Positions 1 through 50,671 of a DNA stretch of 64,000 nt are shown here, piece by piece; within the stretch, counting starts at the first letter, position 1; every line of letters begins with the position of its first letter. The notes under the pieces were generated by a model, which ran no database searches, was not told the DNA's origin, and saw only the letters and a program-made list of their open reading frames with translations. Source of the DNA: Bryoerythrophyllum caledonicum (Eukaryota; Streptophyta; Bryopsida; Pottiales; Pottiaceae); the NCBI GenBank assembly GCA_963971425.1, contig OZ020521.1, positions 7,581,519 to 7,645,518 on the forward strand, given 5' to 3'. The position numbers were made by a program, and so were the translations under genes.

Positions 1-499
1 TTAAAAAAAAAAAAACCAAGTTTGTACAAACATATTGTGTATAATCAAATTTGTTGATATGAGAAGCTGTGGAATTTTCAACATATTTTCAATAAATCTT
101 TGTTAATTATTGATGAATATCTATTTAACATTGTTGTGCAAAAATTCAAAGAAATATTATACGGATTGTACTCTACAAAAAAACGCAATCACCAATAATG
201 ATACAAGAAGCAACAATCGCCAAATCATAAGAGGATATTCTAAATAGTACATGATATACAAATGGAAGAAAATAAGTATACCTGCATCTATACATGGACA
301 TAGAGATGTAATTTAGCAATAGTAAAAATCTCTTTAATCCATAGGATTGCTTCACAACGTCCTATATAACCCTTACAATAAACTACCTTTGCACATACAC
401 TAAATAGCAATCACCATATACAATACACTCATAATACTTTCATTATTGACTATATAGCATTTAAGGTTGCTTGCAAGTGGTTGTCGTCGGTAGCTTCGG
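1..499. other. AT-rich non-coding stretch
   Basis: This AT-rich stretch contains only short chance reading frames. I see no recognisable coding, RNA or repeat feature before the transposon remnant that starts near 500. Confidence 0.5.
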
Positions 500-3085
500 T
501 TTGCATTGCAATATTTTCTAGTATGTGAGCCTTAGCCGATTGAAGAATGCAAAACCTGCTTTCAACCTGCATTCCACCAACAAGCCCGAGTCATGGTTCT
601 TTCCGATTCATCTACCTATGAAAAAATGCATGCCTCTTTCTCTACCCAACGATGGTTCTCACCAAATGGCTACCACAATGAATCCATGCAATATGCATAC
701 TGTTGTGCAGATAACTCCACTCCATCAACAACCCCTCCTCGGATGATGGGCCAATACCAACAAACCTTCATCTTCAATCTCCATAGGCTTTTCCGTCTTC
801 AATCACCTTTTCTACATAGAATGGTATACCACCTTCTACTTCTGCTGGATCAACACTCAAGGCTACAAATTGTCCACAACCAATATCAAATTCTGGATTG
901 AATGGTGGAAACGGGTTGTGGTTACTTTCATGCACTGCTCCTTGTTTGGCTTGCTCCTCAACATGGTTGCGTTCCATTCGTTGTGCCCTACGGACTGCTT
1001 GATTAAATGGTCTTCCTCTACAAGGATCAAAGTATCCTTGAACGTCGGCATTTGAAAGCATGGTCACTATTTGGTCCACAACAGTTATCTCGCGATTATG
1101 TTGAGTTGGACCGTCCATTACATCCAAGGCTGCACTTTTGCAGGTGCAGTGTTGGAGACCTCTGAAGGCCAAAATGCTGAAGAATAATTCTTGTTGTTGT
1201 GGTCTTTGTATGGAAATTTAGCTAGATAGAGTTTCAATCTTTCGGCCTCCTCTTTTGCATCACAATTCTTGTCCATATGTTGCAGTCTTTGAATGCACCT
1301 TTTTTTATATGCAATAAAGTCATCCAATGCCTTCGGTTCTCGCTTGTCTGCTTCAAATACTTTTGCAAAATTTGGTCGCTCATCTCTACTTGAGAACAAC
1401 CTCAAGGTCTTTGTTCCTCCCTCCGATCTCTATGGATCCTTGCAATAATGCTTTTGTTGTACTCGAGCCTCATGGATCCCCTCTCGATTCTCCATATAGA
1501 ATCGCATGTGGTGCGGATATGTTATGACAACCAATAAATCCGGACCTGTTGGTAAGTGAGGAGTTATAAACAATTTTCAATCCCACTCATTCTCTAACAG
1601 CCAGGCGCTAACAAATGCCTCCGTAGGAGATGTTCCTCTTTCTGTAAGACTAAGCATCTCCTTCAACGAATCCATGTCCGACCTCTTCAATGTACTTGAT
1701 ATACAACTAAAGCATTGATCAATATCTTCGTACGTATGACCAACTATAAGAAAAGAGAGTTCCACCTCCTTGAAGAAGCCCAATCCCACCAATGTAGTAT
1801 ATAAAGCAAACATATAAATGTTTTTATTCTCACCTGTGCAGTTTTCCGCTTGGATGCGCAATGTTGGTGGCAAAAAGCCCTTCCTCCGCAACACATCTCC
1901 TATCACGTACAACAATGTACTCACGACCTTGTTGGTATCATGTTTGTGGTGAGCTCCTAACCACACATTGCAATATAAACCAATCCCATGTACAAGGGCC
2001 CTACACAAGTGGGTCTTCACAAATCGGTGTTCAATGTTCTTCATAGTTTGACGCATCTTTGGTACCATGGTTGTGTTTTGGTCCATGCCATCCACAATGG
2101 TGCACATGTACAACTCAGATCTAATATAACACGACCTCTTAAATATCCAATAATGCCTACGTTCTTCTATTTGGTTGCATAGATGCAACATATACAACTC
2201 TTTTATCTTTATCGTTGCATTCGCATTGGTGGTTCTGTCCATGGCACATTTATACTTCCAACAATGATAACAATTTGAGAGTCTCGAGAATGGAGGTACC
2301 TAGATGTAAGAATACCTGATGCGCCACATCCTCCGGAACAAGTTGATCGAAATGGTTTCCCCAATATAAATTCTCTTCACCTCCTTGTTCACATATTTGA
2401 ATACATCAAACTTTACTATATTCATGGAAAAGAGAATAAGAGGCACCACTTTGTTGTCTTTCCCACGGACATTCTAGTGCTCTCTCTAACCGCGTCTAAA
2501 AGGGTGTTGCCGTGAATGGCCTTCACTCTTCCATATATTAAACAATCTTTCTTCAATTGCTTAAAGCGTCTTTTCAAATAGCCAACCTCAAGAGCGTAGC
2601 AAGCATTGCAAACTTGTTTGCCATCTATCTTCGTTACAAATTTATCACCACAAGTTTCTTCCGTCTGTGTAAATAGAAACGAGCATCTATCCCATTCACG
2701 TACTTCGTATAGGAAACCTGGAAGCCCATGCATTATATCGCATGTCCAATAGATACTTTGCTGGAATGTCACTCAAACAAATTATTTTGTTTTCATCCTC
2801 TTTGAGCTATTGCCCATTGCATGCTTGTAATTGGTGTAGCTTCTGTCAAGGATGCCTTTCTTGAGACTGCCATTCTCCTATTCTGCAAAGAATGTGGACG
2901 ATGCATTGGTCTAACATAAGCTAATCCATCTACACATGGGAGATCTTGGATGTTGGAGGGAGTAGATTGGAAAAATGGCGAATTCTCATCTACGGGGTTT
3001 AAAGCTTCATTAGTGCGCCGAGACTTGTTGGTGGATCCTGGTGTGTTCAACCGCTCATGGAAATCAAATTTTGGAGCCGTCATTT
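500..3085 (-). pseudogene. Decayed DDE-type transposon gene (DUF7869-like)
   Basis: Consecutive minus-strand fragments read as one decayed protein. The N-terminal piece (3083-2793) is low in information. The next piece (2772-2422) has a cysteine-bearing segment around KIDGKQVCNACY. The central piece (2242-1577) carries three acidic blocks typical of a DDE/RNase H fold: IVDGMDQN, LRIQAENCTGENKN and VGHTYEDIDQCF. The C-terminal pieces (1405-1118 and 1172-774) include FVALSVDPAEVEGGIPFYV. The central blocks resemble, from memory, the DUF7869 family of repetitive proteins in algae, early land plants and animals. Frames change between pieces and several stops intervene, so it is broken. I found no terminal repeats. 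The transposon assignment is inferred from the acidic blocks and the degraded repeat context. Confidence 0.6.
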
Positions 3086-4057
3086 GTGTAGGTGATGTTT
3101 AAGATCCATCTTCACCATGGACATTTGTAATATTAGGTTCTACCCCAAAGACACGTTGCAAAGACCGGTGCCAACAAATGATCAAGCCATTACACGTGCT
3201 AAGACGTTCTTCTACAACCTTTTCAATCCAATCCAATGCATTGTTAGCCCTAATGATATGCACCGCCACCTTGAATGGGAATAACTTTGACCCTTCAATT
3301 CCATGCCACTTTTAAATGTATGCTCAGGGTTGTCATAACAGACGAAATAGGGTCATCCGGTGGGCAAATCGGACGGACGAACTGGACCAGACGAGCAGAC
3401 AAACTGATTCAACGATTTGTCCATTGTATATATAGTTCAAGAGTGAAATAGTTGGCTACAAATGATACTTCAGTACGTGACATGTTGTTCCACAGTGGAT
3501 TGAAGTCCACCTTGGAAGCCTCCAACAAAGCACGGATGTTAGCGTTGGGGCGCAGACATCCTCGTACAGGGCAGAGACGTCATCGGACATGGTGGGGACG
3601 TGCGGCGGGGACTTTACCCGTTGAAGAGAGTCCCTTCTTCAAACTCTTGCAAACTCTCTTCCAAAAATTAGAAGAACCATTAATGGAAATTGGATATTAT
3701 TTATAAGTCCAACAAGATCTTGACATGAATCTCCATTAATGACAATAATAATGTCTTTGCCAATATGTCAAAAGGAACTCTTTATTTGAGGTTTGACTCG
3801 AGAGGTCGTACTCCCGAGTCCCTTCCTTCTATTGGATTTGATTATTTTGCTCTCTTCCACCACCACTGCCCTCTTCTCTCTACCTCCAAATCTTGATCAT
3901 ATATCACTTCCCCATTCCTTCTACCTCCATACCATGCTTAATTAAATAAATGTCTTTCATTTCCATTCCTTACACCCTCCAACTCCCACTAGAATTAAGT
4001 GAAAATCTTTCCGCCTTGGTACATTGCTGGCATGTGTAGGAACCTGTCAAGGGACAC
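3086..4057. other. Non-coding spacer between two transposon remnants
   Basis: No protein family is recognisable here. An 84-codon frame at 3452-3706 looks like chance. The stretch near 3360-3420 is locally rich in GGACGGACGA-like steps but forms no clear repeat. Confidence 0.4.
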
Positions 4058-16604: not shown

Positions 16605-18117
16605 CTAAACATCAAAGTCAGTGTAGCAAGTAAATAGTACATGCTATTTTAAAACTTTCCTTTCAGAATGAATCTACGACTTAGAATGCCAAACTCTTCC
16701 TTAGACCGATCCCAATACAATGAATTGTTCATGCAAGTAGCGCCGAATTATTCCTAGTCCTCGAACTTCACCCGGCATTTCCTGTCAATTTTCTCCAAAA
16801 TGCGAGTATGTCCAACAAAGCTTTCAGCTGATTTTACATGCAATATGTAGCATTTGAACAAAGGATTCATTCAAACAGAATTTACACTCAATGCAATCAC
16901 GGCTGATGGAACAAAATGTAATAGCAGGAGCTTCAGAAGCAGACCGAAGTGAGAAAGTGGAACACCCCTTTCACCCAGTGTTACTTGCCGAATAACATCG
17001 ACAGATAATTCATTAAAAGAGTTTCCACTAGAAGTAATCACGAGTTCTTAACGATGTAATAGAGACGCTTCCGTGTCAATATTCAGAAGAAAACTAGATT
17101 GTAAACACTTTTAGGTAACATACAAATAAGATCGAACAGAGGGCATCATATTCCTGCTACACCTCTTGCTAGAAAAGCTGCAGAAGACGTGCGATGACTG
17201 GAGTACTCTGGTGGGGATCAAGCTCCCCGCTTCCTAACTAATTTTTCCCTCCTGCAAGCTTTGCCGGCGCGTTCACCGACAGTAGTCGCGTCAATGGCGG
17301 CTGCTGCGGGGCCCGCCGATGGGGTTCATGACGCACTAGTTCGCGTATCGTGGACAGTGGTCTTAATGAGAGCCGCCTCCGCATGAACACAGCCCACCTG
17401 CCACAGAATCTAGCTTTAACTCCGGGCCTAATTTCCGGACGGCAGCATTTAAGACTCCCGACGCTTCAGCTTCCTCACCCACCGAGACTGGAGTGCGAGC
17501 AGCTGCGGCAGCCGAGGTGCAATTAAGTTCCAGTAGCGATCATCGTGAAATGTTGCGTGTCTGAGCCAGCTTTACCTGCAGATCTCATCCAGTTTGTTAG
17601 GAGGATATGTGAATTACAATACTAAACAAATACTAAACAGATTCGACTTTGCGCTGTGAAGTATCGACTGTAAAGTACTCAGCTCCATTGAAACACACCA
17701 CACTAGGGATTTGGGCATCTGTAGTGGAAGACGCAGCGACGCTTATGGATGACGTACCAGGTTCAGAATGTACCGTGCGGACCTACATGGGGAGGAATAG
17801 GACTCAGGGGGAAAGTTAGCTAGCTCAGAACGCACCGGATTCTGTTGTGGATGACGACTCGACATTGATCTAGCTAGAAGGCACTGACAGATCTCGCTGA
17901 GCTGAAGGTTCAGAGAGGGAAAGTGAAGGTCCAGCTGAAAAACCGAAAATTGACAGTATTAGGTTACACAGCATTCTACAGAGGAAATCTAGTACAATGT
18001 ACGAGAGTTTGGCGCTCTGTAGTGCTGAAATCGAACACATTTTCTCCTTCAAGACCTGACTATAAAATTGTGGGGAAGCAGGCACATAAAACAGACGAGG
18101 GGTAAAGTGAAGGAAAG
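16605..18117. other. Non-coding region with moderately GC-rich patches
   Basis: No convincing gene is seen. 17160-17530 is GC-rich (GCCGGCGCGTTCACCGAC) and interrupted by stops in all frames. Short frames near 17870-18100 look random. A decayed gene or promoter fragment cannot be excluded. Confidence 0.35.
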
Positions 18118-18204
18118 GATGTGATATTGGCGCGGCTCAATCTGCTGGCCACACCAGTATTTACTGGCATGACCATCTGATTGAGCGCCCCCAATATCAC
18201 ATGC
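18118..18204. repeat. 87-nt near-perfect hairpin
   Basis: The arms GGATGTGATATTGGCGCGGC and (reverse complement of the right arm) GGCATGTGATATTGGGGGCG pair with few mismatches. Pairing continues through CTCAATC and CCAGTA toward a central ACCAGTATTTACTGG loop region. Total stem is about 40 bp. It could be a short MITE or a transcribed foldback such as a small-RNA precursor; no transcription evidence is visible. Confidence 0.65.
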
Positions 18205-18279
18205 CTCCGAATAATCTCGTTCTCCCTCATCAACCAAACCAATGCCGGTCTTCTCGCTCCGTCACGTTCACGTCCAGTC

Positions 18280-27510: not shown

Positions 27511-30500
27511 AAGAAGAAGAACTTTGGACTCCGAAGGGAGCCAAAGTGAATAAAGTGTTTGTTTGTCCGACTACTAAATCCATGTCTACCGGACATAGGT
27601 TTAGTGGTATGCCAAATTCTTCCCCTTCTAAAAGGTAGACACTATGTAAGCAGTAAGAAGCAACCATCAACCAAGGACCAACCAAAGCCACAAGGCTCAA
27701 TTCCAAGAGATTATTTGTGAGGATGTGTGTTTTAGAGAGGTTTTTAAGGGATATCATATGATTCTTGGACAGGTTGGTTATTTTCAATCTTTGTTTGTGT
27801 AGGAGTATGGACATTATATGTTGGATAGCAATGGTATTAAAATTTGTGAATGTCTTTTTAGTTGGATAATTGAGGATATTGAATGTTTTTTCAAGACTTT
27901 TCATAGAGGGAATCAAGGTAGTAGCTTTAGCATAGCAACAATGATAATAACACGGTCAAATTTCCATCCAAAAGCTGCAGTGTCATTAATAAGTGTTGGT
28001 ATTTTTTTAATTTTTTCAATTGCTTTTGGAGAAAATCTGTCAATATAATATTTGAATTTGATAAATTGGATAGTAAGGTTTGTATTTATGTGGTCCGGTA
28101 AGGGGTCTTTATATGGTAGTCCTTTGACGCATAGTATATCTGGTTTAAATTTGGCATTACAATGACATCCTTGGGTTCCACATGTGCATGGAAGTAGCCA
28201 TGGAGACACCGTATTTTCTTGTGGATTATTGTTGAAGGTTCCGGCGTGCATAAGTATAAAGCATCGGGATTTTTTGAGAATATAATTAGTTTCCGGATTT
28301 TTCATATCGCTTTGTTGTGTCTTTTGACGATTAGAGAACGTATGTGATGCTTTTGGCATTTGAAGAGTACATGTAGCCATGTGTCCAAGTCCATGGGGTG
28401 CATATTGGGCATGTTATGGAGGGAAATTGTTATATTCCTAAGAAGAGTTGTTGCAGGCATTTCTCATGTATTGTTGAGTACAAAATTTGGTAAGGCATGT
28501 TTTTTGTGAGTGTAATTGTGGGATTTTCCGAAAGTTTGTGGAGAGTTTGTTATCAATGTTGTAGTTACCGGTCAATTTGTCTATCTTAGGGAAACTTTCC
28601 GAGATTAAATACAGGTTGTGGATTCGGTCTTAGTTTTTGAGATATTTGTCTAGAAATCCGATGGGGCTTTTGTCCGGGGAATCTTCCATAGTAGATCAAC
28701 TATCTCTCTGGAAGTAGTATGGGGTAGCGTGGGCATGTTCATGCATGTGTTTGGCATTTGTATGGGATTCATCTAGTCCTTCTTTAGATAATTTATTTGA
28801 TTGTTTGTTTCCTTCTATTTTGGCATGTGCTCTAATTTTATGAAGGGTTGTAATTTTGTCCAATTTTGTAGCATTTGAACTAAAGATGTTAACATGGCTT
28901 GGTCAAGGTGGATATTGTGGAGGATAGGGTGTGTTATTTGTGTATTTTGTAGATATGATACGTTTATACAATATGTAAAGATGCGTGGGTTCATTGGCGT
29001 ATTGTGTAGTAATAATTTGGAGGGTTTTATGTAGGGCCATCATTTTTGCACTGAGGATATTTTGAAGTCCACGTAGTCCTTTGGATATTTTTATTTCTTT
29101 AATTGAGTTGCATATGCCATATCCAACTTTTTCTCTATGCTAATGTCTCAGGCTAGCTTTTGCTGGTTTTTTTAAGGAACCATCTGTGTAGTAGCTATAT
29201 GCGGGGTCAAATTTTGATGGAATATAGTCTGAATATGTGGGGAGGAGACGCGGTGAGGTGATGTAATTTTGTATTGTGTTTATATATTTAAGGTTTGACC
29301 ATTTTTTGTTGTGGATTACTGGGGTTAGGGAAGGTGTAGGTGGGGCTACTTTTTTTATATAGTTGGTGTATATTAAGATTTTTATTATAGAGGTGAGTGT
29401 GGGAAGTTGTTCAGTGGTGCGAATATTATTATTTTGGTGGTGTATGCATAGTATTTGCATAGTAGATGACTCAAGTCTTGGTTATTTCTTAGTTCACGTG
29501 GTAATGTGGGTTCTTCATATGGTACCAAGTTTGCTTCATGTAGTGTGATGATGTGAGAGTTGAAGAATGGGCTCAAATGTGGATTAAAGTTTTGGTACCA
29601 ATTGTTGTCAGCTGTGATAATAAAGGAGGATGTATATTTTGGATCATTTTTGGCCGCAAGTCTTGCCCAATGTATTGCTTGTTGTGTTTCTTCTATATTG
29701 TGGGGGTGCGCAATACCAGTTCCAATCCATTTGTGTTCAAAGGCGTTTTCTAGTCAACCAAAGATTTTGTCTCTTTCAAAGGGTGAGTGGAATTTAGTAA
29801 GTTGAACGGAGCATGTGATGGGGGATGAAAAGTACAAGTGTTGGATGTCAAAGGATGTGATTAGTGAGTTTAGAATGGGCGTGGGTGATGTGTATTGTCT
29901 GAGTTAGAGGCGGTCATTTTCTTAGATGCAATATTTATATTTTTAGTATAGCTGAACTATTTAAGTTTTAAATGGTTGAATTATTGGCTCTATGTTTGTG
30001 GGAGTTTGTGGGAGTTTGTGATTTGTTATAGTATTGGTACCATAGCCATTGAAGTCTAGTGACAATAATAGTGATCAGATGTCTCTCATTGTCTTCGTAT
30101 ATATGTGCATGATTCTCAACAATATTGATTGTGTTGATTGATGTAAGAATATCTTTTTTGGGGTTACATTTGGTTGTCTGGATGTTGAAGAGATGAGTGA
30201 GTATGTATAAGGTAACGGATCTTGAGTCACGAATTTGTTCTTGGGGCTGGTGTGCTTGAAATTTTTCTAAGTAGAATATATTTTGGGTGTTTTGATAATA
30301 TTGCGTAAATTGTGCGGAGTTATAGGTGTAGGTATTTTGGTCATGCCATAGGAAGAGGTTCCTTTAGGGTACCCATTTGTTGTTGGTAGCTTTTGTGTTG
30401 CCATTGGCATAAATATTTGGTATCATTTTTTGTAATTTTGTTTGAGACAATATGCTTCCTATGTTTATGGTCAGTAATGAGATTTATGGGATGTGCGGAC

Positions 30501-30530
30501 GGATTTTTAATGATGTATGTTGAGGGATGG
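27511..30530 (-). mobile_element. LINE copy 1 (RNase H + R2-type endonuclease), 5'-truncated and decayed
   Basis: Read on the minus strand, fragments give, in order: a region also present in copy 2 (TKYLCQWQHKS near 30400); an RNase H start (YSYYTDGS at about 29200) with the late RNase H block (IRAHAKIEGNKQSNKLSKEG near 28830); a zinc motif (CPIC, then DTWLHVLFKC and KRHNKAI near 28400-28330); and a C-terminal nuclease (PCTCGTQGCHC, KFKPDIL, IQFIKFKY at 28220-28040, then VIIIVAMLK). The 3' end is the AAGAAGAAGAA tract at 27511 (TTC repeats in the sense strand). Many stops and shifts. Its insertion separates the two halves of the pogo-like gene. No target duplication was found. Confidence 0.75.
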
Positions 30531-36410: not shown

Positions 36411-36935
36411 GAAAATTAATAAATACCAGCCATTTATTAATAACATTGGTACTCTTGGATGGAACGTTGACCTCCTTATTGTCATTACCGCTGGAGCTAG
36501 AGCTACTACCTTTATCTCCTCTATGCAAAGTCTTGAACAACATTTCATATCCCCATTAATCCAATTAAAAAGACTTTCACTAAAATTAATACCATCGCTA
36601 TCCAACATACAATGTCCATACCTCTACACAAATGTAAACTCGAAAACAACCAACCTCTCCCGGACTACATGATACCTCTTAAAAATCCTTAAAAACACAC
36701 ATTCAACCTCTACAAATTATCCCTTGGAATGGAGCCTTGTAGCTCCAACTAGTCCCTGGTCATTGGTTACTAGTTATCGGTCACTGGTTACATAGTGTCT
36801 ACCCTCAAGAGGAGGGAGTAGTTCCATAATAATAAATCTATGCCTAGTGGACATAGATATAGTGGTGGAATGAACAGACACTTTAGTCACTTCGGCCCCT
36901 TCTAGGACCGGAGTTTTCCTTCTTCCCTAACCAAT
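36411..36935 (+). mobile_element. LINE copy 3, 3' fragment
   Basis: Plus-strand fragment coding the last part of the nuclease domain: KINKYQPFINNIGTLGWNV, then LLIVITAGARATTFISSM. It continues into the family 3' UTR (GTGGACATAGATATAGTGG) and ends near the ACCGGAGTTTTCCTTCTTC tract. Strongly 5'-truncated, as is typical for LINE insertions. Confidence 0.75.
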
Positions 36936-37309
36936 GTAGAGTTCATTTTTATAGATATGTATTATAATTTTTTTTCATTTTATATATCTAAAGATTGATA
37001 AATACCAAACGAAGCACCCTAGGTTATAGGATATACTTCTTCCTAACTTACTTTCACTCAAATCTTATCCAAGTTACTAGTACGTGAAAGAACAATGTCT
37101 CCCTTAATAAGTACAAGTGGCTCCCTTTACAACAACCTTGTTGATTTTGCTTGTTATATATAGAGGCTACTACATTGAGCAGCTGTTATAATGGAAAGGA
37201 TCGGTAACAAGTGTTACAACAAGTATTGTTGTTGTAGAGAGAGAAGCTGTGATTTGACCCAAGTTGCATGTTATAATCGGATTATTGTTGTATCAAATGC
37301 TTGTGTAAA
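36936..37309. other. Short spacer between LINE fragments
   Basis: Nothing coding or repeated was recognised between the two LINE 3' fragments. Confidence 0.4.
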
Positions 37310-37425
37310 GTTCCATATTGCTAACCCATGTCCGGTGGGCATGGACTTAGTGGTGGTACAAACATACACTTTATTCACGTCGGCCTCCTCATAGAGACTG
37401 GAGTTCTTCTCTTCTTGCTTGTGTT
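37310..37425 (+). mobile_element. LINE copy 4, 3' UTR fragment
   Basis: About 115 bp of family 3' UTR: CCATGTCCGGTGGGCATGG, GTGGTACAAACA, then GGCCTCCTC and GACTGGAGTTCTTCTCTTC. Same strand as copy 3. Confidence 0.7.
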
Positions 37426-41344: not shown

Positions 41345-41483
41345 CCAGAATGTTGATGAGCATTATAAGTATTTAGACATCTTTTGAGGTGATATCTATG
41401 GGTATCACATAGGTATAGCATGAATATTGCATGGTATCATCTAGATATATCACGGATATTGCAAGGTATGGCCTAGGTATTCC
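41345..41483 (-). repeat. Repeat family R, copy 2, part flanking the LINE on the left
   Basis: Matches the reverse complement of 62.83-62.94 kb: TATTTAGACATCT, GGTATCACATAGGTATA and TATGGCCTAGGT blocks in order. It ends with the 14-bp target duplication GGCCTAGGTATTCC (41470-41483). Confidence 0.7.
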
Positions 41484-44400
41484 TAGAAGAAGAAGAACTC
41501 CGGTCTCCGAAGGGAGGCCAACATGTGTCTAATGTGTCTAGTCATACCACTACAAAGTCCATGTCCACCGGACATTAATAAGTGGTATGGAACTATTCCC
41601 CTTGTCAAGGATAGATACTATGTACCACGTAATAAGTAACCAAGAATAGAGAACCAATGACGCCAAGGGGGCTAATGGGGTAAAGCTTTAGTAGGTTTTC
41701 AAGGGGGGTCTAGCGTGTCCGGGATGGGTTGGTTGTTTTTGAGTTTCTTTTTGTGTAGGAGTATGGACATAGCATGTTGGATTGCAATAGTGTTAATATT
41801 TGTAAAGGTGGTTTTGATTAAGATAATGAGAATTTTGAATGTTTTTTCAAGGGTAGTCATTGAGGGAACAAAGGTGGTGGCTCTAGCACCCACGGTGATG
41901 ACAATGAGGGGGTCTACTTTCCATCCAAGTGCTTGCATATCATTGAGGAGTGGTTGATATTTATTTATTTTGTTTGTGATGACTTCCGGTGAGAATCTAT
42001 CATTGCAATATTTGAATTCAATAAATTGAATAGTGAGGTTTAGGTCCATGTGGGTCGGTAGGGGTCATCATATGGTAGCCCTTTAACACATAGGTTGGGT
42101 TTAAACCTTGCGTTACACTGACATCTTTGAGTACCGCATGTGCATGGAAATAACCATGGAGTTACGGTGTTTTCTTGCAGGTTGTCGGATGATAGTCGAC
42201 TAAGGTGGTACAAATAAACTATCACAAACCGTTTTTTGCCATGTCACAACTGCTCTTTCGCGTCACATGCCGAATTCGCTATTGATTTCAGATGTTGGTC
42301 TACAAAATGTGAGTCCTGGCTTCCATGCCATCACACATATCATAAATTTTCACCGAACCGGTCTACAGTTCAATGAGAAGAAGTAAATTTGTAATTAGTA
42401 TATATTTGTCACAGTTTTAAAAATGGCTTCAAATATACTTCTTGTGGGAGATCAGAAGTTCACAATTCTACAAAACTTTCAGATTACATGCACAACGTGT
42501 TCTTTTTGGTCATTCCAAATGAAAAATTATGATCTGAGACTTAAATTTGCTTGTACAGCAAAAAATGGGCTGATTTTCAAAAATGCTCAAAATGGGGGTT
42601 AAATGTTGATTTTTGCTCCAAATTCTTATCGAACCTTCTTTAGTACACAAAAATATATCTTAAAATATAAAGTATTTTAAAAATACTTTTTTTTCATCAT
42701 TTTCTTCAAAACCTAGTTTTTGGTGCCTTAAAAAAACATATATACCTTGTAGTATTTTTGGTATATTTTTAGTCTCTGTAGTATGCAGTATTCTCATCTC
42801 GGGAAAGGGTTCGACCACTTATAGAGCAACATGTGTTATGACAACACAAAGTTCCAAAAATCAGCACTTTGTTCAAGAGATTTTATGTTCACCTAACATT
42901 TTGTTGGCCATGATTTCTTCATACCTAAAAAATGGACAGTTGGCATTCAACAAGAATTTAACAAAGGGCTTCAAAACAAACATACTATGGAGTATATTAT
43001 TTTTGCCCACTTTGTACCCCCTTTAGTGAACTTACACCATGTCGTTAAAAGTTTCGGCATTCATGAAGTTGAAGCAACGGGATTTGTTTGATGACACAAT
43101 TAATTTGCAAATAGCCTACACCGCTTTGTTGTGTTGTTTGAAAATTAGGGCGTGTATATGAGGGTTATGGCATTTGAGGAAAACGAGTAACCATGTGTCC
43201 GGGTCCGTAGTGTTGCATATTGAGCATGTCATGGAGGGGAATCTTTCTATGCCAAAGAAGGGTTGTTTATCGGCGTTTCCCATATATTGTCCGGTGCGGA
43301 ATTTGATGAGGCATGTTTTTTGCAAGTCTGTGATTATGGGATTTTTCCAAAAGTTGGTGGAGAGTTTGTTGTCAAAATTTGTATTATTGGTCCATTTATC
43401 AATCTTAGGGGATTTTTCCGTAAGTATTTCCCAAAAAAAATTGAGGTCATGTTTTTAAGGTATTTATCCAAGAATCTTATAGGGCCTTTATCATGGGTTT
43501 TGTCCATAGAGGGCCATTCATATCTATGGAAGTAGTATGGGGTGGCATGGGTATGTTCGGAAGGGTGTTTGGCATCTCGGTAGGCTTTCTCTTGACCTTC
43601 CTTTGCTAATTTGTCGGCTTATTCGTTGCCATCTATGTTAGCATGGGCTCAAACTTTATGTAATGTGGTGATTTGTGTCCAATTTTGGAGCATTACGACC
43701 ATGTGTGTTAGGATAGTTTTGTCCGGATGGCTATTGTGTTGGGTGGGGTGTTTCATATGTGTGTTTAGGAACTGTAATACATTAATGCAATCTGTAATAA
43801 TGGGTGTTGATTTGTTGGGGGTATAGCATGGTAATTATCTTGAGGGCTTTATGGATAGCTATTATTTCGGATCTAAGGATATTTTGAAGTCCATGTAGTC
43901 TTTTGGCAAGTTTAATTTGTTTGGTGGGGTTGTATTTTCCATAGCTGGCTTTTCCCCGGTGTTAATGTCTTGGGCTTACTTTGGTTGGTTCTTTGAAGGA
44001 GCCATCAGTGTAGTAACTAAAATTGGGGTCAAATTTCAGAGGGGTGTGATTTTGGTAATCATGAAGTAATGAGGTTGCAGGAGTTAGTGGTGTAAATTTG
44101 TTTATAGAGGGGGTCTTCGACCATTTTTAATTGCAATTTACATGAGTTAGTGTAGTTGTGGGTGGGGCAATTGCGGTGTACACATTATTGATGTTGAGAT
44201 TTTTTGCAACTAGTGTGAGTTGAACAAGGTGTTCTAATGTGCCAATTTCTCGGATTTGATAATGTATACATAGGACATGTAAGGTTGATGGCTCAAGATG
44301 GGGCTTTTGTATTTCCTGTGGTATAGTAGGTTCCATGTATGTCATTGAGTCCACTTCAAATAATGCTATAATGTGGGAGTTTGAAATTTGGCCCGACTGT

Positions 44401-45745
44401 ATATTAAAGTTTTGGTACCAATTGGTGTCGCGTGTGATGATAATGGTGGTGGTATGATAAGGGTTGTTGTTTGCCGCTGGTTGCGCCCAATGTATTGCTC
44501 GTTGTGTTTCTACGTCATTGAGGGGATGTGCTAGACCTATTCCGTTCCACATATAGTAAAATGCTTTCCCTAGTGAACCAAATATTTTATCCCACTCGAA
44601 TGGAGAGTAGAACTTAGAAATTTTTGTCGAACATGTGACAGGGGATGAAAAGTATGATTTTTTATATTAAAGGATTTGATGATGGAGTCTAGCAGAGGCG
44701 CTCGTAGTGTGTAGTGTGCATGTTTAAGAGGGTTATTTTTTTGGTATACGGTATTTGTATCTTTGGTATAGCCAAACAATTTCAGTTTCAAATGGTTGGG
44801 GTGTTGGTTCAAGGTTGATGGGGTTTTGTAGTGCATCATGGTATTGGTTCCATAGCCATTGTAATCTAGCGATTGGTATAGAAATTAGGTGTCTACCGTC
44901 CCCTTCATATATGTGGGCATTGTCTTACAGTTGTATTTTTATTGTGTTTGTTTGTGTAAGAATGTTGATTTTGGGGTAACATTCGGTCGTGAAGATGTTA
45001 AGGAGGGGGATGATGATGGACACTGTGACAAATCTTGTATGTCTAAGGTGTTCTTGGGGGTAATGTAATTTTATAGTTTCTAGGTAGAAGTTGTTTTGGA
45101 CTTGTTGGTAGTATTCTTTAAGAATTTGAGTGTTATGAAGTGAAGCCTTTCGATAGTGCTAAGGGAAAAGGTTTCTTTGTGGGAGCCATTTACTATAGGT
45201 GGTGTTATCGTGGCTCCAATGACATAAATATGTTGGGTCTTTTTTGCTTATTGTAATGGAGTCTGCATTTGTTTTGTGTTTATGGTGGATAATGTTGTTT
45301 ATAGGATACGTCAAAGGATTTTTTAATATATGTGGTGGTGGGGGGGAGGGGAAGGTGGGTGTGGCTGATAAGGGGGTTTGGTGCGGGGATGATTTCAGGT
45401 TGGATGGTATCGTTATCAATGATGTACGAGCTTTTTTGTGTGTAAGGTGGAGCGTGAGTGGGGCATGGGGTGGAGCATGTAGGAAGACATGCGGGGTGGC
45501 AAAATAATTGTTTAGCAATGTTGAGTGCACTTTATAGAAGCTTGGGTGGTGTACCACAAAACTTTTTGTAGTTAATTTCATTCGCAAGGTGAGTTGTGTT
45601 TGGAAGTGTGATTTCTTTTAGATTGTTGATGTTTGCGGAAAATAGTTTTTGTAAAAGTTTAGAGAATAGTTGTCAGTCAAATCTAAGGAGGTTATGAATC
45701 TCGTTTGCCCAAATTTGTTCTAGTGGCACAGGGCCTAGGTATTCC
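41470..45745 (-). mobile_element. LINE copy 2 with 14-bp target duplication: RNase H + R2-type endonuclease
   Basis: The LINE body (41484-45731) is flanked by GGCCTAGGTATTCC at 41470-41483 and 45732-45745. Minus-strand order is: post-RT linker (45587-45159, 44839-44570, 44552-44127; WNGIGLAHPLN); RNase H (FSYYTDGSFKEPTK near 44010, LRSEIIAIHKALKII near 43840, late block AHANIDGN near 43640); zinc motif (CSICN...DTWLLVFLKC...HNKAV, 43230-43116); then nuclease (FPCTCGTQRCQCN near 42150, PTHMDLNLTIQFIEFKYCND, LGWKVDPLIVITVGARATT, 42060-41860). PD...EFK fits a PD-(D/E)xK nuclease as in R2-type LINEs. The RT core is missing because the copy is 5'-truncated. The 3' UTR ends in TTCTTCTTCT. Several stops. 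A TIR element interrupts it at 42186-43040. Confidence 0.85.
42186..43040. mobile_element. TIR element inserted in LINE copy 2
   Basis: About 850 bp interrupts the LINE between RNase H/zinc motif and nuclease. The ends GATGATAGTCGACTAAGGTG (left) and GGTGTAAGTTCACTAAAGGG (right, reverse complement) form an imperfect TIR followed by GTACAAA. A possible TGTCG duplication flanks it, and LINE copy 1 runs continuously through the equivalent point. A related copy lies at 26845-27445. Confidence 0.6.
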
Positions 45746-46307: not shown

Positions 46308-48220
46308 CTAGGCGCCGGGAACAGGGACAGCTTCCGCTGCGTCAGTCTCAGCATTGTCTCCAACAGGCCTCTCAATCTTGGCACCAACCTCCTCGCTGTA
46401 GTCTCCATGGACCTATCAACAGTCAAAACACATAATAAAAATGAGTAACAGAAAATACAACAGGTGTATTTTTTTCATCAAACCCGAAGTGCTCAGTTTA
46501 AAATGGATGAGAATGCCAAGTTAAGATAAAAACCATGTAAATGCAGGGACGAAATATGGATTGTATTTTAGATAAACGTAGGATTATTCGGGTTCATGAT
46601 TAAATTATGTTGTCCAACATATGAAGAAAATGTCTCCCCCAGGACAAATACAGACAATAGATATGAAGAGTGTAGTGAGATTTTTTGACTGACCTCCATG
46701 AGCTTCATCAAGTCGAACTTGGGGGCCTTGAGGATCTTCACTTTCCTAATGAAAGTGTTCTGCAGAGGGTAGATTCCTTGGGTGACCTTCTCAATTTCCT
46801 TGCCGATGACCTCAGGAATGAACTTCGCAACCAGCTCCTTCAAGTCACAGCTCTGAGCTTCACGGACCATGATTTCTCTCATCTTGCGCCTGATCTGTGA
46901 AGATGAAGGTAGAAAAAAAGGCTAAGAAACCTTGGCCAGAAAAGCAGATGGAAGATAGAGAGCAAACTAGGGTAAGGTGGCCCTGCTGAATTTCGGGTGT
47001 GGTAGAAAATATGGACTAATATGCAGTTATATGAGATGTTACCCAATGTGTGAGTAAGGTACCCCTCCTTAGGCAGTCCTCAACTAACCTCAAAAGAGAG
47101 AAAGGAGGCAAATATGCAAACTGTTTCGCTCCTGGAGACGGTTCGAACTACTTAGTTTTTAGTTTAGAGACCACCAAATCCCTTCCATATTTGAGAAGAG
47201 ATTCTAACAGTAAGATCATTTAGTTAAAAACAACTGATACTATTGAAGGTGAACAAATAATACCATAATGAACAAAGAGTAGATGTGTCTTTAGGTGACT
47301 TCACAAAATAATCTAGTAGTTGATAAGGCACACAAACCTGACGGATTTGGCTGCTCTGCGCATAGCAAGTCTTCTTAATCTGGTTGGGTCTCTTCTTGGT
47401 GAAGGCAATGCAGAAAAGACGCAACTGGTAGTTGTCAGTGGTCTTCACATCCACATGAGCCTCAATCAAACTCTGCCACTTGCGAACAAGCGACCGCAGC
47501 TTGTCGGTGGTGAAGTCCATGCCCTAATCATCCCAAAACCAACTAAAATCAGTATCCAATGTTCCTAATTGAAAACGTAAAATCCAAGACAGAATTCACA
47601 TCATGCTTCCCTTTCTGATATCACACTAACACAGAATTCACACACCATATCCATGCTGCTCTTTAGAACTTACCCAAAAGTTTGTGAGGATGTTCTTGCC
47701 CTGCACATCCTCAGCCCTAAGCTTGATCTTGCGGAAAGCCTGATCCTCGTCACCGTTCTGCAAATCAGCCAAAGAAACCTCGAAAACACGGCCCTTCAAG
47801 CCATCGGAAGCAATCTGCCAAAAGCAAAAAAAACCTCAGGTCAGAACCCTAATCCTCTCCAAACCAAACACTTAACCCAAACCCTATTAGAACAGAGAAA
47901 AAAAAAACCCCATTCCGAACCACCAGAAAAGCTAATCTCCCCATTCCACCAGAAAAAAATAATCGTTTGCTCACCTTCGTACCAGCGGTCCTGGTGACGA
48001 GCGTCTTCCCAAGCGACCTCACCGAGAAGGTGGTGGGCGCCTTGATGTCATACCAGTCCTTCTTGGAGAACGGGTCGACACTGCAACCACAAGTTTATCC
48101 ACAAGTTAGCTCCCGCAACAAGAGATGGTGGTTTCAAGGGAGGAGAAGGACCACTCCCTACATTTTCTTCTTGCCTCCCTTCTTCCCCTTGGAGATGCGC
48201 TTGTTCTTGCCGACCGCCAT
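46308..48220 (-). CDS. RPS3a: 40S ribosomal protein S3a (eS1), six coding exons
   Basis: eS1 is a structural protein of the small ribosomal subunit platform near the mRNA exit. Exons on the minus strand: 48220-48162, 48080-47975, 47814-47674, 47523-47338, 46894-46694 and 46412-46308. All introns have GT-AG ends. The coding length is 798 nt (265 aa), close to the usual 260-265. The start [19 protein letters not shown] is the standard plant N-terminus. Further family blocks are [14 protein letters not shown] (exon 2), FEVSLADLQ and GKNILTNFW (exon 3), [16 protein letters not shown] and [11 protein letters not shown] (exon 4), and [18 protein letters not shown] and [18 protein letters not shown] (exon 5). 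The C-terminal tail is acidic then proline-rich, as in plants. It shares a divergent promoter with RH10. It looks functional. Confidence 0.95.
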
Positions 48221-48563
48221 GGTTGCGGAAGGACGGACCGGGCAGGGCGGAGCAGCGGCAAAGCAGGGGCGAGCGTGAGCCGAAAGAGAATGTATTGTCC
48301 GCGCGATCAGGGTTTTGGGGGTCCCATGGGCGCCAAACCCTAACCCTAATTCACTTAAACCCTGGCCGCGTTCACACGGGGGGTCTGGGTTCCTCGTTCC
48401 CATCCATCTGCGAACGGCGCATTCTCGTGGAGGAGAATTTACCCTTTGCTTCAGGGCTTAGGGTTTTAGGGTTCAGAATTAGGGCTAGGCGGTATCCTCT
48501 TGTGTGTGTGCACACACACGGTGCAGACACACAGACACACAAGACGTTGAGTATTCGGGTGCG
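48221..48563. promoter_or_regulatory. Divergent RPS3a/RH10 promoter with telo-boxes
   Basis: Only 343 bp separate the two start codons. The interval contains AAACCCTAACCCTAA (48335-48349) and TTAGGGTTTTAGGGTT (48458-48473), the telo-box in both orientations. Telo-boxes are known plant promoter elements of ribosomal protein and translation genes. A (GT/CA)-rich run (GTGTGTGTGCACACACAC) precedes RH10. No TATA box is obvious. Shared control of both genes is an inference. Confidence 0.7.

Positions 48564-50671
<2,108 letters not shown>

Follow-up and report, generated by a model that had tools for sequence, protein, structure and literature searches.

A probable Dualen/RandI-type LINE with two endonuclease domains and a PCIF1-like domain in the moss Bryoerythrophyllum caledonicum

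A stretch of 64,000 nucleotides from the moss Bryoerythrophyllum caledonicum (contig OZ020521.1, positions 7,581,519 to 7,645,518 of the forward strand; hereafter the window) contains on its minus strand a long interspersed nuclear element (LINE) that lacks its 5' part. By comparison with longer copies elsewhere in the genome, it was considered as probably a member of a Dualen/RandI-type family of dual-endonuclease LINEs, about 12.7-12.9 kb long and recently active in a land plant, the label Dualen-type being assigned by domain plan. In its second open reading frame (ORF2), as read in copy L026, the predicted order is an asparagine-rich leader with a 2A motif, an N-terminal region, an apurinic/apyrimidinic-type endonuclease (APE), a reverse transcriptase (RT), a chromodomain-like segment, a PCIF1-like domain, RNase H, a CCHC knuckle and an R2-type restriction-like endonuclease (RLE). 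An earlier reading of the window from its letters alone (the sequence-only reading) had proposed a land-plant LINE combining RNase H with an R2-type RLE, and had left the presence of APE undecided. Both domains are found in one ORF2 of the open-frame copies, and an APE-type region is present in all nine of these. The C-terminal layout given there (RNase H, knuckle, RLE) was recovered; the PCIF1-like, chromodomain-like and 2A parts were missing from it.

The genome (437 Mb, 894 contigs) was searched using the RLE piece of the window copy, which matched the window itself and at least 149 other places with 79-86% identity (best 150 of 6859 first-look candidates), many of the matches lying inside open frames of 1000-2800 codons. 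Twelve long stretches and 10 upstream stretches were taken from the genome and read as they stand, without building a consensus. A stop-free ORF2 frame of 2415-2613 amino acids, in which the 2A, YADD, TDGS and RLE motifs were all located, is present in 9 of the 12 long stretches; the three others have runs of N at the 5' end (L028 and L029) or cover the wrong side of the match (L024). A search for full-length copies had been suggested by the sequence-only reading, and these nine open-frame copies are its outcome. Copies are dispersed over many contigs. Two of them were measured end to end, at 12,884 bp (target-site duplication GGGCTTTAGGG) and 12,720 bp (duplication TAGATCACTCGC), and duplications are 11-14 bp long in the three copies measured. 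None convincing was found for L025, L026, L027, L030 and L031, for which the upstream stretch probably stops short of the 5' end. The 3' untranslated region (UTR) is about 210 nt long with GC-rich hairpin-like repeats, and a TTC-rich tail follows in the 11 copies displayed (short or irregular in L033 and L034).

Copies L027 and L031, located on different contigs, are 99.96% identical over 7.5 kb, and three copies of another subfamily are 99.7% identical. In a genome search for PF12237 (see below), 42 matches share an E-value of 4.0e-11, 33 of them in a frame of exactly 3087 codons (best 150 of 2614 first-look candidates). Such near-identical copies and uniform matches indicate that the family has been active very recently. 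Viral contigs were scanned using the PCIF1-like piece of the window copy, an alignment of 16 PCIF1-like members, the L026 segment from RNase H to RLE and the L026 RT, and bacterial and archaeal contigs using the 16-member alignment; no relative was found in any of these five scans.

Profile searches of ORF2, which the sequence-only reading had also proposed, gave Pfam matches of RVT_1 (1.6e-29), RNase_H (2e-11) and PCIF1_WW (1.5e-9) in L026, with RNase_H at 1.8e-12 in a second open copy, and a sub-cut-off match for APE (Exo_endo_phos_2, 1.2e-5 in L035). The RT active-site motif is YADD, and the D-E-D-H-D residues of RNase H are visible in five aligned copies. Compared with solved proteins, the RT matches R2 proteins at 5e-31 to 8e-17 and L1 at 5e-19 to 2e-18. 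A profile of four APE copies matches ExoIII at E 0.011 and the L1 endonuclease at 0.22; the residues N16, E45, D172, N174 and S255-D256-H257 are invariant in these four, a set from which L026 is absent. The APE-type region shares its open frame with the RT, and RNase H lies in the same ORF2; about 200 amino acids between 2A and APE are without an assigned fold. Two other classes were excluded on these frames: an ordinary plant L1 with APE only, by the presence of the RLE, and an R2-like element without APE, by the presence of the APE region. The eight top loci of the RVT_1 search (L001-L008, among at least 150 matches) were set aside because, by their VDYRGLN and YLDD motifs, they look like LTR-type RTs and not LINEs.

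The tail of ORF2 is supported as an R2-type RLE because of ordered motifs shared with solved R2 proteins: H....C, RHN, KPD, (I/V)(D/E) and K..KY occur at the C terminus of ORF2 with the order and spacing that they have in three solved R2 proteins, R2Bm among them. In the alignment, the Asp of KPD falls on a position occupied by Ala in the R2 chain of 8ibw. Of 6 element sequences, 5 fit the full pattern with the C..C...H....C knuckle, and the window piece, which is the sixth, does not reach the knuckle. A shortened pattern lacking the first two Cys fits 3 of 3 R2 segments and the first element sequence; when that sequence was shuffled 200,000 times, 0 shuffles fitted, a count that gives no unbiased probability since the pattern was written after both sides were known.

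The window copy is decayed, its motifs being spread over several minus-strand frames, and is flanked by a perfect 14-bp target-site duplication (GGAATACCTAGGCC); the limits 41470-45745 drawn by the sequence-only reading are the outer edges of this duplication. Its quoted motifs were located, all on the minus strand: YYTDGS at 43986-44015, AHANIDGN at 43625-43648, TCSIC.. at 43206-43229, KQHNKAV at 43119-43139, CTCGTQRCQC at 42115-42144, IQFIEFKY at 42008-42031 and GARATT at 41873-41893. Two of them stand in part. The knuckle C-x2-C...H-x4-C is in place, its His being lost in the window copy, which reads LLVFLKC where open copies have LHVLLKC or LHILLKC; and KPDIL is replaced by KPN (42079-42108) in the main copy and is present in the second, more diverged window copy. 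The long copies with open frames have kept KPD. Six tblastn pieces of the window copy are colinear with a full-length relative (64-79% identity). The likeness of the window motifs is not attributed to chance, because of these six ordered pieces and because the R2-like motif series is absent from shuffles. Taken alone, neither the window RLE piece (121 amino acids) nor the knuckle piece (112 amino acids) matches a Pfam family, even with E-values up to 1 allowed. The stretch of about 850 bp between knuckle and RLE, which has no match to element copies, is presumably an insert in this copy. Coordinates of all these features are collected in Table 1.

The domain between RT and RNase H, which the sequence-only reading did not report, resembles the cap methyltransferase PCIF1 (CAPAM). 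PF12237 (PCIF1_WW) matches two whole ORF2 proteins (1.5e-9 and 4.6e-9) and, with E-values of 1 or lower, every one of the 16 aligned members (best 9.7e-15), the window piece 44127-44666 included; L026 scores 41.3 bits for a curated cut-off of 31.1, and the cut-off is exceeded at all of the best 150 places in the genome. Solved PCIF1 (6irx) aligns over F.SP..C, F.S.F and D..FGS.G, with an E-value of 0.0052 when one sequence is used. In 16 sequences the FGSLGK loop is invariant and SP..C nearly so. The NPPF motif itself is replaced in 24 of 24 copies (the 12 long ones, 10 fetched, the window copy and the second window copy), mostly by HPHN, with HPHT, PPHN or HPLN in single copies (HPLN at 44514-44537 in the window copy). 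Because the fold is kept while NPPF is lost, the domain reads best as a putative binding module whose catalytic motif has been lost. A host PCIF1 gene was sought with a PCIF1 fragment, and none stood out among the best 150 of 765 first-look candidates, a search that a gene with small exons would escape; the best place reached 28.8 bits, and the matches that could be placed, among them those within L026 and L051, belong to LINE copies.

Between RT and the PCIF1-like domain, a segment of the form YPINNIIHHK...YLCQW...TYNKWLPQRDL resembles a chromodomain and is considered a probable one. Pfam Chromo matches 6 of the 7 proteins spanning the segment, at E-values of 0.0058-0.17, as well as 4 of the 16 members of the PCIF1-like alignment at E up to 1 (6 of the 16 stop short of the segment), and the CBX4 chromodomain is a weak match (0.88) of the 16-member profile.

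ORF1 has a conserved core of about 520 amino acids, its start set by eye, with 46-80% identity to the first of five lineages. Its end is coiled-coil-like, and the core profile matches only vimentin among PDB proteins (E 0.66). Relative to ORF1, ORF2 is read in the -1 frame. Between the end of ORF1 and the (AAC)n tract, this frame is stop-free in 9 of 9 copies from four lineages, for 2-7 stops in the other frames (a tenth copy, L037, is outside this count, its ORF1 end having been missed by the pattern); in the four copies readable as far as 2A, it is open throughout, for 3-13 stops in the others. The leader is Asn-rich, being the product of an (AAC)n microsatellite, followed in some copies from L036 to L045 by an AACCAC tract encoding (Asn-His)n; tract length varies greatly and the ORF2 frame is kept. 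The 2A motif reads GDIETNPGP or GDIEKNPGP, conforming to D-(V/I)-E-x-N-P-G-P, in 9 of 9 copies spanning the place (of 12 long ones). L032 lacks an ATG anywhere in the -1 frame from the ORF1 stop to 2A. On one reading, ribosomes would pass from ORF1 to ORF2, giving a fusion through the Asn-rich leader from which 2A would release the enzyme; translation of ORF2 may instead begin at the ATG of the leader in copies that have one, at the Met that directly follows 2A, or at a codon other than AUG. This layout suggests an unusual way to set the ORF1:ORF2 ratio.

An open frame of about 790-1,105 codons was also observed ahead of ORF1 in five lineages (L043 at 122-3391, L036, L037, L038 and L041), with an amino-acid sequence hardly conserved among them. 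In L043, the ORF1 frame is open for 1090 further codons upstream, with 0 stops vs 40 and 48 in the other forward frames; dinucleotide chains gave 45.8 expected stops (minimum 28 of 300), an excess over chance computed for L043 alone.

Selection was estimated as the ratio of nonsynonymous to synonymous divergence (dN/dS, NG86) in four pairs of subfamilies, whose copies are related and hence not independent. Ratios are 0.06-0.12 for RT, 0.03 for RNase H, 0.06-0.10 for knuckle plus RLE, 0.12-0.17 for APE, 0.12-0.19 for the PCIF1-like domain and 0.13-0.21 for the region after RT that contains the chromodomain-like segment. In all 4 pairs, purifying selection thus acts on both endonucleases and on the PCIF1-like domain, and no domain in this set appears to be unconstrained. 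In three pairs crossing two leader types (L026 vs L027, L032 vs L035, L025 vs L035), synonymous divergence in the ORF2 N-terminal part is 4-6 or saturated vs 0.2-0.6 downstream; because silent-site divergence jumps in this part, an exchange of 5' modules by recombination between subfamilies is suggested.

Several results weigh against the assignments made above. The RT of R2Bm (8gh6, 4.6e-18) is no closer than that of L1. The APE match of L035 (25.6 bits) is under the Pfam cut-off of 27.4, and L026 has no APE match at E up to 1. Alignment of the RLE with three R2 segments by hhalign is weak (Prob 7.4, E 0.0048) and covers only the knuckle and RHN, the RLE profile has no match in PDB, and AlphaFold, run alignment-free on two window pieces, gave uninformative folds (predicted local distance difference test, pLDDT, of 36.5 and 41.1). 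The 16-member PCIF1-like profile reaches PCIF1 in PDB at E 0.13 only. All Chromo matches are under the Pfam cut-off of 25.1 bits, and the seventh protein, that of the decayed window copy, has none. For frame passage, L039, L043 and L045 have an in-frame ATG about 65 codons ahead of 2A, and no canonical slippery site was seen by eye. Lastly, the Dualen of Chlamydomonas carries a cysteine protease, and a scan of two ORF2 proteins and one ORF1 frame with an E-value limit of 1 gave no Pfam protease.

In the favoured scheme, ribosomes would reach ORF2 from ORF1, through reinitiation or a -1 frameshift, or would begin within the leader, 2A would free the enzyme from the leader, and the RT would copy the RNA by target-primed reverse transcription. 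APE and RLE would split the two nicks between them, RNase H would clear the template, the chromodomain-like segment would read chromatin, and the PCIF1-like domain, its NPPF lost, would be an RNA-binding (perhaps cap-binding) module and not a methylase. One rival, to which we give not quite an even chance, is that one endonuclease alone works in integration and the other is kept for another job; the RLE, for instance, might clamp onto DNA, or APE might cleave nothing but the second strand. In the parts of the sources covered (PMC4640811, PMC3636483), a single endonuclease is described for other LINE groups, and L026 has GDFI at the APE site where the four copies aligned beside it have GDFN; this proposal has to face the purifying selection on both domains and the catalytic motifs of both, kept in the aligned open-frame copies. 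Two DNA cutters in one element make it a good system for asking the role of each: the family is recently active and high in copy number, selection acts on both active sites, and how the nucleases share the work is therefore open to direct testing. It is hardly credible that an ordinary plant L1 or R2-like element acquired this mixture by nested insertions. The window copy is indeed broken and contains a stretch without element match, but nine copies, each at its own site and several of them 99.9% identical, have 2A, RT, RNase H and RLE in one unbroken frame, and nesting as the source of the feature mix was ruled out by these nine uninterrupted frames.

Two other views concern the PCIF1-like domain. 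That it still works as a methyltransferase, its catalytic loop being altered, and modifies the element's own RNA or DNA, is judged unlikely: the invariant FGSLGK, the nearly invariant SP..C and the selection on the domain would suit such an enzyme, against which stands the replacement of NPPF in every copy. Still a little less probable is that the likeness to PCIF1 is due to chance or is very remote, the domain being a lineage-specific RNA-binding or thumb extension; the PDB profile E-value and the uninformative AlphaFold fold speak for it, and it is opposed by the match of all 16 members, the L026 score, the best 150 genome places all above cut-off, and the SP..C, F.S.F and FGSxG motifs lying colinear within the match. 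Returning to the binding-module reading, a fuller scenario is offered tentatively and as rather doubtful in its entirety: a land-plant LINE would have captured a PCIF1 domain, lost its catalysis, and kept it as a selected 5'-end reader together with a chromodomain, two endonucleases and a 2A-cut, -1-frameshift fusion to ORF1 by way of the microsatellite leader. If true, a 5'-end reader within the RT protein could favour full-length copies of a 12.8-kb element. The PCIF1-like domain would be an unusual retrotransposon capture of RNA-cap machinery.

R2 elements occupy a single target site and are not known to carry APE or RNase H. The moss element shares with them an RT that is closest to some R2 among solved proteins and the C-terminal knuckle-RHN-KPD-(D/E)-K..KY series, and differs by having APE beside its RLE and by being dispersed. 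With plant L1 elements that have archaeal-type RNase H, it shares APE, RT, RNase H and a downstream CCHC, and differs by having an RLE beside its APE; the archaeal-type enzyme is described with Arg in the portion of the source covered (PMC4640811), whereas the moss element keeps His (AHANIDGN). Utopia LINEs of oomycetes also combine RLE and RNase H in one element, but in the part of the description covered their RNase H lies upstream of RT, they target U2 genes, and they are grouped with RLE-only clades (PMC4640811).

The Dualen/RandI plan is, in the excerpts of the sources covered, that of a dual-endonuclease element (PMC3636483, PMC4640811) for which RNase H is also listed (PMC4640811), and in 8 of 8 green-algal RandI families the 3' end carries repeats that are not poly(A) (PMC3747384). 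In these same terms, the moss element is similar in having APE, RLE, RT and RNase H, and non-poly(A) 3' repeats (TTC). Dualen is reported in relatives of Chlamydomonas (PMC8226300) and as expanded in most cryptophytes studied (PMC12747079), within the passages covered; the host here is a land plant, and the PCIF1-like domain, the chromodomain-like segment, 2A and the (AAC)n leader go unmentioned in those passages of the Dualen descriptions. NPPF is named as the PCIF1 motif in the part covered of PMC8868631; the moss domain has colinear motifs from the end of the helical part into the methyltransferase, and differs from PCIF1/CAPAM, a cap-adenosine methyltransferase, in having NPPF replaced and in lying within a polyprotein encoded by a LINE. 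Chromoviruses and other chromodomain elements are LTR elements, in the sections covered (PMC5348765, PMC6338049); the likeness is a possible chromodomain in a retroelement polyprotein, here a LINE with the segment placed between RT and the PCIF1-like domain. For 2A, the part covered of PMC4981915 reports 2A-like sequences in non-LTR retrotransposons of trypanosomes and sea urchin, from which the moss case differs by a dual-endonuclease element and a leader that is an Asn-rich microsatellite product in the -1 frame of ORF1. In the open-licence papers searched, neither a bryophyte Dualen nor a PCIF1 domain in a LINE was found. Relative to the parts of the literature examined, the land-plant host, the PCIF1-like domain, the possible chromodomain and the 2A with its -1 leader appear to be new.

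Table 1. LINE features in the window (positions counted from its first letter)
Feature	Position	Strand	Basis
5'-truncated dual-endonuclease LINE (probable)	41484..45731	-	tblastn and blastn to open-frame copies; flanking target-site duplications
Target-site duplication, element 3' end, GGAATACCTAGGCC on minus strand	41470..41483	.	exact 14-bp repeat
Target-site duplication, element 5' end	45732..45745	.	exact 14-bp repeat
Segment directly after RT core, truncation point of copy	45343..45731	-	tblastn 65% to L026
Chromodomain-like segment (YPINNIIHHK...YLCHW...KWLPQRNLFP)	45162..45308	-	Pfam Chromo in 6 other copies, sub-cut-off
PCIF1/CAPAM-like methyltransferase-fold domain, approximate limits	44100..44950	-	Pfam PF12237; PDB 6irx with L026
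RNase H, TDGS to AHANIDGN, approximate limits, frame change inside	43590..44030	-	Pfam RNase_H in open copies
CCHC knuckle and RHN-type motif ahead of RLE, knuckle His lost	43116..43229	-	motif reading
Stretch without match to other copies, presumably insert	42187..43040	.	about 850 bp
R2-type restriction-like endonuclease, KPN for KPD	41702..42189	-	tblastn 73-79% to L026; motif series in open copies
3' UTR, hairpin-like GC repeats and (TTC)n tail	41484..41701	-	comparison of copies
Second, more diverged 5'-truncated copy of same kind of element	27511..30520	-	blastn about 68-69%; translation
3' fragment of related copy	36412..36925	+	blastn 70-71%
3'-end fragment of related copy	37309..37416	+	blastn 81-84%

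A plastid-like contig of 115 kb has rbcL (Pfam PF00016) and, next to each other, a tRNA-Arg(CCG) gene and a frame read as accD; together with a MIR171 precursor in the window, this agrees with a land-plant host, and the trnR(CCG)-accD order and the size of the plastid would suit a bryophyte. Two clearly different rbcL genes are present in the assembly (L046 on contig C821 vs L047 on C590 and L048 on C894); the second rbcL on C821 may be from the plastid of a second plant or from old plastid DNA in the nucleus. Elsewhere in the window, a MIR171 microRNA precursor was detected at 18111-18210 (Rfam RF00643; 57 bits on the minus strand, 48.9 on the plus strand). Near the LINE copy, a stop-free frame of 463 codons at 48489-49880 (+) encodes a DEAD-box helicase (Pfam DEAD 4.2e-47, Helicase_C 1.6e-29), and the GC content around it (48001-50000) is 61.7%.

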